This document shows, piece by piece, positions 15,885 through 18,528 of a stretch of DNA of 64,000 bases. The position numbers and the translations under genes were made by a program. Under the pieces are notes generated by a model that was given only the letters and a program-made list of their open reading frames with translations, ran no database searches and was not told the DNA's origin. This stretch comes from Paludisphaera mucosa (GTDB lineage Bacteria > Planctomycetota > Planctomycetia > Isosphaerales > Isosphaeraceae), in the NCBI RefSeq assembly GCF_029589435.1, contig NZ_JARRAG010000002.1, forward strand, positions 3,224,001 through 3,288,000, written 5' to 3'. The number at the start of each line of letters is the position of its first letter. The first letter of the stretch is position 1.

Positions 15885-16382
15885 TCAGGCGTGCGGGCCG
15901 GCGGCCGAGGCATCGGCGGTGCGGACGTCTCGTCCGAAGCCCGAAGCCTCGAGCGCTTCCCCGACCGTGAACAGGGCCGCCCCCAGCAGCACGACGTCCT
16001 TGAGCAGGAATTGCCCCGGCATGGCCGACAAGGCCGGGAAGCCGCCCAGGCTCGGCTCCCAACCGGGGGTCGAGATCAGGAAGCTCAGGGTGGTCAGGAA
16101 CATCCCCACCGCGAGCCCACTCCCCGCGGCCGAGCCGAGGGGCCAGATCGGACGCACAGCGATCAGCAGCCCGACGGCGATCTCCACGACGCCCAGGAAG
16201 GCGGCGAAGCCGCCGACGCTCACGACGTCGTAGACCCAGCGCATCGGCGGGCTGTTCGCCACCAAAGGCCTGATCCCCTCGGCTTCGTAGGCGGTGAATT
16301 TCATCCCGCCGATCCAGAGCAGGACGAGGACCAGCCCATAGCGGGTGACGTGCAAACCGATCGACTTCAGACGGTCGCCCAT
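15885..16382 (-). CDS. DUF417 (YkgB/RclC-like) inner-membrane protein
   Basis: This 165-residue protein has about four hydrophobic helices and the DUF417 signature LVLLWIGGMKFTAYEAEGIRPLV near the N-terminus, with ANSPPMRWVYD next. DUF417 includes E. coli YkgB (RclC), which takes part in resistance to reactive chlorine species; the biochemical role is unknown. A GAGGAG site nine bases before the ATG at 16382 sets the start. It is the last gene of a minus-strand unit that begins with a Crp/Fnr regulator and two cytochromes P460, which suggests a role in oxidant or nitrosative stress at the membrane. Confidence 0.85.
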   Translation of the reverse strand: MGDRLKSIGLHVTRYGLVLVLLWIGGMKFTAYEAEGIRPLVANSPPMRWVYDVVSVGGFAAFLGVVEIAVGLLIAVRPIWPLGSAAGSGLAVGMFLTTLSFLISTPGWEPSLGGFPALSAMPGQFLLKDVVLLGAALFTVGEALEASGFGRDVRTADASAAGPHA

Positions 16383-16434
16383 GGGGGACGGCTCCTCGAG
16401 CATCGGGGTGGATGGAGCTTCTCGCAGCGGGATC

Positions 16435-17043
16435 TTACTTCGAAGGGTCGGCCTTCGTCAGCGAAGGGTAGCCGCGGACGTAGATCCAGTCGTCTTTCCT
16501 GGCCGGGACGTGGCACGACTTGCAGTCGATCTCGTGGTCGGTCGCCACGTTGCGATCCGGTGCGTCGGCCTTGAACAGGGCCCATCCCCAGCCGTCGCCC
16601 CACAGGGCGTTGTCCGGGAACCGGCCCCTGGCGTCCTTGACCATGACGAACCAGAGCTTGACGCCGTCCTCCCAGTGGGCCTGCCCCGTCGTCATGCGAT
16701 CCGACTTGATCCCGTCGACCTCCTTCACCAGGACCGCGCCGTCGGGGAACTTGCCGTCTCGCCGGTAGGCTTTCACGTCCTCCGGCCGGGAATAGACCAC
16801 GTGCATCTCGTCGACCGGCTGGCCGGGCTTCGTGGCCACCGCGTAGGCGCCGAGGTACTGGAAGGTGTCGCGATAGTCGGTCGGCCGCGTGATCGCGCCG
16901 TCTTTCGCGACGTACGGCGAAAATTCGCCGGCGCGGGCGGGCGGGTCGTCGGGCCCTGGAGCTCCGGACGCGATCGTCGCCGCGACGATCGCCGTCGCGG
17001 TCAGGCAGCCGGCGACGAGCCGGCGGGGGGCCTTGATACTCAT
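16435..17043 (-). CDS. Cytochrome P460 family protein, second in operon
   Basis: This 202-residue protein has an N-terminal signal sequence (basic start, then CLTATAIVAATIASGAPG) and a cytochrome P460-type domain with YLGAYAVATKPG, MHVVYSRPEDV, FPDGAVLVKEV and a C-terminal haem c site CKSCH at about residues 174-178. P460 proteins are periplasmic haem proteins with an unusual lysine-haem crosslink; characterised members oxidise hydroxylamine or bind nitric oxide. The start at 17043 (MSIKAPRRL) leaves the signal peptide intact. It lies 58 bases downstream of a paralogous P460 gene and 52 bases upstream of the DUF417 gene. Confidence 0.88.
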   Translation of the reverse strand: MSIKAPRRLVAGCLTATAIVAATIASGAPGPDDPPARAGEFSPYVAKDGAITRPTDYRDTFQYLGAYAVATKPGQPVDEMHVVYSRPEDVKAYRRDGKFPDGAVLVKEVDGIKSDRMTTGQAHWEDGVKLWFVMVKDARGRFPDNALWGDGWGWALFKADAPDRNVATDHEIDCKSCHVPARKDDWIYVRGYPSLTKADPSK

Positions 17044-17101
17044 GGGATGTACCGCCTGGGGTTGGAGGCCACGATCCGGACGAGACGAGCCGCGCCGCAT
17101 G

Positions 17102-17698
17102 TCACTTCGTCTTCGGCGACGCCGCGCGAAGGACGGGGTAGAACTGGGTGAAGACGTAGTCCTTGGCTGCGCTGGACTGGTGGCACGAGTTGCACGCCGC
17201 GGCGTCCTGCTTCGCGGCCTCGGCCTTGAGCGGGTACTTGTGGCCGAAGCTGAAGTAGCCCCAGTGGCCCGGCTCGTCCTGGAATCGTTTCGAGTCCTTG
17301 ATCGAGGCTTCCAGGCCGATGAAGTCGCCCATGAAGTAGCCGCTTCCGCTGGTCGCCTCCTTGGCCCCGACGGCGACGAGTTCCTTGATCATCACGGCGC
17401 CGTCGCGGAACTCGCCGGTCTTCTCGAAGTGGGCGAAGCTCTCCGGGTCGATGTAGACGGCGTGGAAGTCCGGGAACGGGGCCTCCCCGCCGTTGAGCTC
17501 GTTGGGAGTCAGGGGCGTGCCGACGTACACCCACCTGCGATAGCCCTCGGGCTTCCTGAGCTTCCCGTCCTGGGCGAACTCGACGAGGGACGCCGGCCCG
17601 TCGGGCGGCGCGGCCCCGGCCAGCACGTAAGTCATCGCGGCGATCCCGGCCAGGACCGCGGTCCCCAGGGCGATGCGCAAACGATTCGTTCCGACCAT
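17102..17698 (-). CDS. Cytochrome P460 family protein, first in operon
   Basis: This 198-residue protein has a signal peptide (LRIALGTAVLAGIAAMTYVLAG) and the P460 pattern: RRWVYVGTPLTPNELNGG, FHAVYIDPESFAHF, GEFRDGAVMIKEL, GHWGYFSFG, and a haem c motif CNSCH at residues 169-173. It is exported, carries covalent haem and probably handles hydroxylamine, nitric oxide or related species. It shares the family core with the next gene but the two are well diverged. The start at 17698 follows AGGACGAGG. A perfect inverted repeat at 17815-17830, in the gap after the regulator gene, lies 117 bases upstream. Confidence 0.88.
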   Translation of the reverse strand: MVGTNRLRIALGTAVLAGIAAMTYVLAGAAPPDGPASLVEFAQDGKLRKPEGYRRWVYVGTPLTPNELNGGEAPFPDFHAVYIDPESFAHFEKTGEFRDGAVMIKELVAVGAKEATSGSGYFMGDFIGLEASIKDSKRFQDEPGHWGYFSFGHKYPLKAEAAKQDAAACNSCHQSSAAKDYVFTQFYPVLRAASPKTK

Positions 17699-17814
17699 AA
17701 GGCGGCCTCGTCCTTTCGGTGTCAGGAGATTTGCGAGACCTCGCGCAGGGCGACGGCGGCTCCGCGCCTGCGGCGACTCAGGATGAGATGCTAACCCGGC
17801 CGCGGAGTTCAAGA

Positions 17815-17830
17815 TGTCATCGAGATGACA
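17815..17830. promoter_or_regulatory. Candidate Crp/Fnr-type operator
   Basis: TGTCAT at 17815-17820 and ATGACA at 17825-17830 are exact inverted repeats around four bases (CGAG). Dimeric Crp/Fnr proteins bind 14-16 bp inverted repeats of this size. The site lies between the stop of the Crp/Fnr gene and the first P460 gene, 117 bases before the P460 start. It differs from the E. coli Fnr (TTGAT) and Crp (TGTGA) half-sites. On the minus strand it is flanked by T, giving TTGTCAT as the first half-site. Confidence 0.5.
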
Positions 17831-17850
17831 ATCCGGAGGATTCGCGGAGA

Positions 17851-18528
17851 TCAACCGCCGGCGACGCGGTCCAGGCCGGCGAGGTCGTCCACGCAGAAAT
17901 GGCAGCGCGTGTACTCGATGAGTCCTTCGCGCCGCATCTTGACCAGCTCGGCGCTGACGACGGGGCGCGCCGCGCCGAGGATCTCGGACAGATCCTGATG
18001 GCTGAGTCGCACGTCGATCGTGTGGCCGTGCTTGCAGCGTTGTCCCTCGAAGCAGATGAGATCCCGCAGCGCGGCGGCCATTCGGGCCCGGAGCGGCGTG
18101 ATGATCTGCCAGAGCAGACGACGTTCGAGAAGCTGGGACCGGGCCGTCGTCGATTCGAGCAGCATGGACGCGAGCCCGGCGTCGGCGCGGGCGGCGGCTT
18201 CCAGCTCCGCCCGTCCCACCTCCACGACCTCGGCGGGGCCGTGGGCGACGGACAGCTCGGGCTGCGGCGAGAGGAACCCCCGAAACGCACGCCCGCCGAA
18301 CGGCCGATCGCCGAAGAGGCCGCCCCGGCCGAGGACCAGCCTCGTGAAGTGATCGCCGTCGGGCCGCGGGTCGACGACCTTGACGTATCCGGCCGCCACA
18401 ACCCAGCAGCGCCCCGCCGTCGGGTCCGTGCAGACCGTCTCCGCAGACTTCAACGACCGGCGACGAGCCGTCCGAACCTGGGCGGCGGCCTTGACGAAGT
18501 CCTCGGCCCAGCTTTTCTCAAGGATCAT
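17851..18528 (-). CDS. Crp/Fnr-family transcriptional regulator with Cys/His cluster
   Basis: This 225-residue protein has the Crp/Fnr layout: an N-terminal cyclic-nucleotide-like beta domain (CWVVAAGYVKVV, FTRLVLGRGGLFGD), a long dimer helix around residues 125-157, and a C-terminal winged helix with LSHQDLSEILGAARPVVSAEL as the DNA-reading helix-turn-helix. Unusually it has C159 and C165 with H167 and H169 just before the helix-turn-helix, and C209 with C212 near the C-terminus; C33 and C41 lie further up. These could bind a metal or Fe-S cluster (inference). It is followed on the same strand by two cytochromes P460 and a DUF417 gene, its likely targets. Confidence 0.85.
   Translation of the reverse strand: MILEKSWAEDFVKAAAQVRTARRRSLKSAETVCTDPTAGRCWVVAAGYVKVVDPRPDGDHFTRLVLGRGGLFGDRPFGGRAFRGFLSPQPELSVAHGPAEVVEVGRAELEAAARADAGLASMLLESTTARSQLLERRLLWQIITPLRARMAAALRDLICFEGQRCKHGHTIDVRLSHQDLSEILGAARPVVSAELVKMRREGLIEYTRCHFCVDDLAGLDRVAGG

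Follow-up and report, generated by a model that had tools for sequence, protein, structure and literature searches.

A conserved GTC-N8-GAC operator and its candidate Crp/Fnr-type activator at cytochrome P460 loci of planctomycetes

What switches on a pair of cytochrome P460 genes in a planctomycete, and what might the pair do there? The question is raised by a locus in a 64,000-nucleotide window of Paludisphaera mucosa (the whole stretch of DNA analysed here; NZ_JARRAG010000002.1, positions 3,224,001 to 3,288,000), in which four minus-strand genes at 15885–18528 encode a Crp/Fnr-family regulator, two cytochromes P460 (P460a and P460b) and a DUF417 protein, with a perfect TGTCAT-N4-ATGACA repeat at 17815–17830 between the regulator and the first P460. 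The first-pass annotation had described these genes and this repeat, and both descriptions hold, the genes by their Pfam matches and the repeat in the sequence; it had further placed all four genes in one operon and regarded them as a self-contained module for sensing and detoxifying reactive nitrogen or oxygen species. The comparison of planctomycete genomes presented here suggests that the regulator is a class II activator of a hydroxylamine-oxidising P460a-P460b-DUF417 operon, a reading to which we assign a probability of roughly 75%. The features concerned are the following.

17851..18528, minus strand: Crp/Fnr-family regulator, 225 amino acids, NtcA-like (PF13545, E 1.6e-13)
17815..17830, no strand assigned: predicted operator TGTCATCGAGATGACA (TGTCAT-N4-ATGACA, core GTC-N8-GAC), from sequence and conservation
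17788..17793, minus strand: predicted –10 hexamer TAGCAT, 22 nucleotides past the operator end (TAnnnT at equal offset in 14 of 15 aligned operators)
17781, minus strand: predicted transcription start, placed from the –10 hexamer and giving an operator centre at –41.5
17102..17698, minus strand: P460a, cytochrome P460 with Phe cap, cross-link Lys, distal Glu and CNSCH haem motif (PF16694, E 4.6e-30; Nitrosomonas europaea P460 chain 2je2, E 1.5e-58)
16435..17043, minus strand: P460b, diverged P460 with the Lys kept, Phe at the carboxylate position, Val cap and CKSCH (PF16694, E 4.4e-27)
15885..16403, minus strand: DUF417 protein, predicted by family to lie in the inner membrane, relative of RclC, with an alternative Met start at 16382 (PF04224, E 2.1e-33)

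The repeat lies 20 nucleotides past the regulator stop codon and 116 nucleotides ahead of the P460a start codon at 17698. Because the predicted promoter sits between the regulator and P460a, the regulator would be a separate transcription unit and the single operon of four genes does not hold; on the sequence, the predicted regulated operon is P460a-P460b-DUF417, with the regulator apart.

Within the window the repeat is uninformative, since a scan allowing up to three mismatches gave 6 matches where 4.8 were expected. The whole genome (8.2 Mb) holds only three perfect copies, with one match to the pattern read backwards, and all three adjoin a copy of the regulator, two preceding a P460 gene and one a DUF417 gene. 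Two of them flank a second regulator copy (60% identical, 336–338 kb), the first separating the regulator from a divergent P460 gene and the second separating it from a DUF417 gene. This second copy of the module (L021 6188–10062; G000:C2 334–338 kb, where labels in L denote loci and labels in G genomes) comprises a propeller, P460, the regulator, DUF417 and the two operators.

Over 31 genomes there are 22 perfect sites, and the single match to the backward-read pattern is the one in the P. mucosa genome. The 13 genomes with the regulator account for 16 of the perfect sites, 11 of which are at regulator loci; the 18 other genomes account for six, one of which is at a P460 locus (G038). With up to one mismatch allowed, 11 of 13 regulator loci (window excluded) carry 16 sites, 9 of them perfect, compared with a mean of 0.32 and a maximum of 3 in 60 rounds of shuffling, and 20 P460 loci without the regulator carry one, compared with 0.52 in shuffled sequence. 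All 12 loci that hold both the regulator and P460a, the window included, have a site that begins 92–154 base pairs ahead of P460a (6 perfect, 4 with one mismatch and 2 with two), as searched within 400 base pairs of gene starts that are approximate, being tblastn edges. Relatives with the same operon therefore conserve the repeat, which the first-pass annotation had left to be checked. Among the 20 P460a loci without the regulator, a site with two mismatches at most occurs at three: it is perfect at L025, whereas L026 and L096 each have one with two mismatches. No site with up to one mismatch was found at four distant P460 loci (L028–L031, 31–33% identity), which were left out of the shuffle-controlled counts and of the P460a tree, or at 8 loci (3.6 kb each) of the next regulator subfamily, the latter being a weak negative.

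The operator also stands at a fixed distance from a –10-like hexamer. Twenty operators were aligned, and the 15 that face P460a or DUF417 were used for the –10 analysis; the hexamer 22 nucleotides past the operator end reads TAnnnT in all except L025 (G038), where no regulator was found, and the mean match to TATAAT is 4.0 at this offset, as against 0.5–2.8 at 59 others. A TAnnnT at +22 therefore places the operator centre at –41.5 from the predicted starts, which is the position of a class II activator. The exact combination of TGTCA-N6-TGACA, spacing and TAnnnT has 17 matches in 26 genomes, all of them at regulator loci of 10 of the 13 regulator genomes and none in the 13 genomes without the regulator; of these, the plus-direction match at G475:C78:36591 is aimed at the 3′-terminal part of the regulator gene and probably marks no promoter. 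A fourth site in the P. mucosa genome, C2:2206864 with one mismatch, was considered as an operator and is taken as chance because it has no TAnnnT at +22 in either direction. In G496, G624 and G731 a –10 box lies at equal distance to either side of a single operator, and such an operator would therefore serve a bidirectional promoter for P460a and the regulator, with positive autoregulation; in the window, the genome-wide repeat scan found no such operator in front of the regulator. The repeat is thus well beyond chance, and its conservation, specificity and fixed distance to the predicted –10 box strongly support the earlier proposal that it is the operator of the neighbouring Crp/Fnr protein.

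A search of 397 genomes of the class for the regulator (E ≤1e-20) yielded 14 genes, in 13 genomes, and the regulator occurs in 3 of 392 genomes drawn evenly from the phylum; these searches scored 7 or 8 first-look candidates per genome, and absences hold within those. With a profile of the 14 proteins, the family itself scores at E ≤1.5e-92, as it must by construction, and the next subfamily follows at 7e-31 with nothing in between. P460a (E ≤1e-35) is present in 29 of the 397 genomes and coincides with the regulator in 10 (hypergeometric 2e-10, relatedness not corrected), in each of which the regulator adjoins P460a or sits within about 6 kb of it. Counted by locus, 11 of 14 regulator loci have P460a and one more is cut off by a contig end (a fragment in G658).

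The protein belongs to the Crp/Fnr family by PF13545 (50.8 bits, cut-off 27), with PF00027 below its cut-off (18.2 bits, cut-off 27.5). Its AlphaFold2 model (predicted local distance difference test score, 85) gives a template modelling score of about 0.75 to the first CRP and NtcA matches, and the closest solved structures are NtcA by profile (8h3v, 67 bits) and CRP and NtcA by fold. It falls far below the NtcA equivalog model (39.2 bits, cut-off 244.95). FNR proper has an N-terminal cysteine motif for a 4Fe-4S cluster; an FNR-type regulator with an N-terminal Fe-S cluster was considered and rejected, the alignment having no N-terminal Cys cluster and its conserved Cys at 159, 165 and 212. 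Of these, C159, C165 and C212, together with H169, are kept in 13 of 14 family members, the exception being L041, an outlier with 32% identity to the window regulator; in the secondary structure of the model they lie at a helix end and on strands of the DNA-binding domain, where they may form a metal or redox site. NtcA also has Cys at the C165 position.

All 14 family members have R188-P189 in the recognition helix, at the positions matching CRP 180/181, where the next subfamily has R-E in 8 of 8. This difference fits the link described in PMC1274295 between residues 180/181 and operator bases, in which a change at 181 is tied to an altered operator. The nitrogen-oxide regulators of that work share with the window family membership of the Crp/Fnr family and nitrogen-oxide-handling targets, and HcpR2 also has Pro at 181; they differ in the targets themselves, which are hcp, nir, nor and nos. 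TGTCA-N6-TGACA is not among the PMC1274295 operators, and its main text has no word starting with TGTCA.

The closer likeness is to NtcA, the cyanobacterial class II activator, whose sites G-T-x-N8-x-A-C are described at about –41.5 with a TAN3T –10 box, including one example in which 22 nucleotides separate the operator from the –10 box, as in the window family (PMC3898017). The window family differs in reading GTC-N8-GAC where NtcA has GTA-N8-TAC, and in its conserved C159, H169, C212 and R188-P189. The predicted promoters have an NtcA-like geometry with a GTC-N8-GAC address.

The same position bears on the direction of control. Were the regulator a repressor, the repeat would block RNA polymerase, and its overlap with the –35 region of the predicted promoter is where a repressor would work too; however, for NtcA the combination of a site at –41.5 and a TAN3T –10 box is described as that of a class II activator (PMC3898017), and a repressor would have no need of so fixed a spacing, so that we regard repression as improbable.

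P460a has the residues required for hydroxylamine oxidation, as judged by alignment. It matches N. europaea P460 (NeP460) at 201 bits with the Lys, Glu, Phe cap and CxxCH aligned (F75, K105 and E130, numbered from the Met at 17698), and all 31 P460a rows have the Phe cap, Lys and CxxCH, the carboxylate being Glu in 30 and Asp in one; this count and the P460a tree exclude the truncated P460a of L058 and the second P460a of G730. According to Table 2 of the 2025 P460 review, active P460s have the Lys and a carboxylate, and the review describes NsP460 with Ala131 as inactive and its Ala131Glu variant as active (PMC11928373). By these residues the detoxification role proposed earlier is plausible. 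Its setting is unlike that of NeP460: P460b and DUF417 are its neighbours, a Crp/Fnr-type protein is its predicted regulator, and no ammonia mono-oxygenase was detected in the 13 planctomycete genomes with that regulator.

P460b is another matter. All 18 rows keep the Lys, with Phe at the carboxylate position and a Val or Leu cap, so that the protein lacks the distal carboxylate of a hydroxylamine-oxidising P460; the Lys equally sets it apart from cytochrome c′-beta, which has no cross-link Lys, though the aligned pocket residues are hydrophobic. With a cross-link Lys and no distal carboxylate it resembles NsP460 and the ‘halfway house’ proteins, whose functions the review describes as yet to be resolved (PMC11928373), and differs from them in the Phe at the carboxylate position and the Val/Leu cap. 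In two species, G712 and G496, cytochrome c domains are attached at the C-terminal end of P460b (L054 8031–9470; L059 4079–5533), a fusion that suggests electron transfer.

In the P460a tree the regulator-linked genes do not form one clade, and the three changes required are matched by only 1 of 500 shuffles. The second P460a of the P. mucosa genome groups with that of G496, from another family (95/86 support), whereas the regulator (60%) and DUF417 (76%) of the second copy are of the window type, a mismatch that may be a sign of mosaic transfer. In G038, a second P460a (L024 7649–8203) has a C-terminal end that diverges right after the haem motif and lies near genes that by eye resemble transposases.

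Several observations weigh against the class II activator reading. When one mismatch is allowed, the specificity of the operator/–10 pattern is lost: G092 and G113, neither of which has the regulator, give 13 and 11 matches, and in several genomes the backward pattern is about as frequent. Five of the 16 perfect operators in regulator genomes lie elsewhere than at regulator loci, and two of the 13 regulator loci (L056, L058) have no site with up to one mismatch, each having a two-mismatch site before P460a. G038 has a perfect operator (L025), but no regulator was found there and the –10 box is missing. In two regulator genomes, G011 and G365, no P460a was found, and P460 is therefore not an obligatory target. 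Finally, P460a occurs without the regulator at 20 loci, and 11 of these instead carry a sigma-54 activator gene in the neighbourhood.

Among the 20 loci without the regulator, a –24/–12-like site (up to two mismatches, no shuffled control) precedes P460a in 7, compared with none of the 12 with the regulator; the GAF-PAS-sigma-54 domains of the activator were checked for L022 alone. The two features do not always coincide, as L022, L025, L026, L086 and L095 have the activator gene but no such site, and L097 has a site with no such gene in view. Altogether, a sigma-54 activator gene and/or a –24/–12-like site replaces the Crp-type regulator at the P460a loci L090–L097, L022, L025, L026 and L086. 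Planctomycete P460 thus seems, from gene neighbourhoods, to be under two alternative kinds of activator. At L025 (8869–12108), the gene for the sigma-54 activator close by runs over two frames, which may reflect decay or a sequencing error.

The genes that the operator faces bear on the nature of the signal. In G011, where no P460 was found, the operator faces DUF417. In G365 (L041 9145–13924) an operator with its –10 box comes after the regulator, ahead of genes for a small Cys-rich, bufferin-like protein without a Pfam match, an MNIO protein (PF05114), DoxX and DUF2063. These two cases make ‘self-contained’ too strong a description of the module, and the signal may therefore be wider than hydroxylamine. 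In G475, operators face an ABM mono-oxygenase (exact match) and an alpha/beta hydrolase (one mismatch), and in G413 a one-mismatch operator/–10 match faces the gene of a beta-propeller. This propeller, of about 461 amino acids, lies between or beside P460 genes in 7 of 14 regulator loci (PF10282 in the L021 copy).

The alternative that best survives takes up these targets. The same regulator and operator would then answer oxidant or chlorine stress (hypochlorous acid, HOCl; hypothiocyanous acid, HOSCN; electrophiles), with DUF417 as the core target and P460 as one of several detoxifying genes. The G011 and G365 operators agree with it, as do those of G475 and G712 near RidA and an alpha/beta hydrolase, accompanied in G475 by ABM, CMD and SnoaL and in G712 by an RclA-like oxidoreductase; moreover, RclC and its homologue RcrB, which PMC12096828 describes in HOSCN/HOCl defence, are DUF417 proteins. 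Against it stand the frequency of P460a at regulator loci (11 of 14, and the one cut by a contig end) with its catalytic residues kept, and the scores of the RclA-like and RclC-like proteins, far below curated cut-offs. DUF417 here shares PF04224 with RclC and RcrB and reaches 94 bits against the RclC model NF040476 (cut-off 275); it is thus related to RclC without being its orthologue, and orthology to RclC or RclA was rejected for both kinds of protein. We consider an oxidant or chlorine signal a real possibility, if one on the doubtful side. That the repeat is a terminator hairpin or a chance palindrome, as its place 20 nucleotides past the regulator stop codon might suggest, is hardly credible and was rejected on the divergent loci (L021, L053, L055, L056, L057 and L059), where it lies upstream of both genes, and on site counts about 50-fold above shuffles, and no T run follows it in the sequence, though no terminator scan was run.

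Under class II activation of the P460a-P460b-DUF417 operon, the reading that we prefer, a dimer of the dedicated Crp/Fnr-type protein would bind TGTCAT-N4-ATGACA, with its GTC-N8-GAC core centred at –41.5, and switch on transcription of the three genes. P460a would be an exported c-haem protein with a lysine-cross-linked porphyrin that oxidises hydroxylamine to nitric oxide (NO) or nitrous oxide (N2O), and P460b, without the catalytic carboxylate, would most likely bind NO or pass electrons on, with DUF417 as a presumed accessory membrane protein of oxidant defence. As inducer, a reactive species of nitrogen, oxygen or chlorine is the likeliest candidate, and the regulator may read it via its conserved Cys/His set. 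While the gene set and its active-site residues are conserved across the loci compared, the identity of this regulator as the binder, its activating role, and the export and reaction of P460a are predictions from that conservation.

The source of the hydroxylamine is less easily placed. Ammonia mono-oxygenase (PF02461) was found in none of the 13 regulator genomes, in a search that gave no match in control genomes either and so had no positive control; hydroxylamine would therefore come from neighbours or from side reactions. An octahaem cytochrome of the hydroxylamine-oxidoreductase type (PF13447) occurs in one of the 13, the P. mucosa genome itself (L116 1834–3480; G000:C2 3082.3–3084.0 kb; 8 CxxCH, 96.7 bits), which may therefore have a second hydroxylamine enzyme; no operator was found near its gene in the 5.5 kb examined. 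The label ‘non-nitrifying’ was considered for the regulator genomes and is weakened by both results, the PF02461 search without a working control and the PF13447 cytochrome.

A bolder version of the mechanism, which we hold to be rather unlikely as a whole, is that the regulator represents an undescribed Crp/Fnr branch in which a Cys3-His site of the DNA-binding domain (C159, C165, H169, C212) senses hydroxylamine, NO or a related oxidant by way of a metal, an Fe-S centre or its thiols, and that the regulator directly switches on a pathway of active P460a and ‘halfway house’ P460b in planctomycetes without ammonia mono-oxygenase. If true, P460b-type proteins would gain a biological setting and the nitrogen cycle a regulated source of NO and N2O.

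No description of a Crp/Fnr-P460-DUF417 module was found among the open-access papers listed, as judged by title and abstract opening. Cytochrome P460 has been studied mainly in nitrifiers and methanotrophs, and the 2025 review calls the sequences that it analysed proteobacterial, with no word starting with ‘planctomycet’ in its main text (PMC11928373). Taken together, the regulator, its 16-base address and the constant promoter geometry would amount to a ready-made regulon. What ‘halfway house’ proteins do becomes directly testable, since an active-type P460 is repeatedly paired with one that lacks the carboxylate. A regulated P460 pair would put hydroxylamine handling, and possibly the release of NO or N2O, into bacteria that are not counted as nitrifiers; some planctomycetes would then have been overlooked as bacteria that handle hydroxylamine under regulation and that might give off nitric or nitrous oxide.

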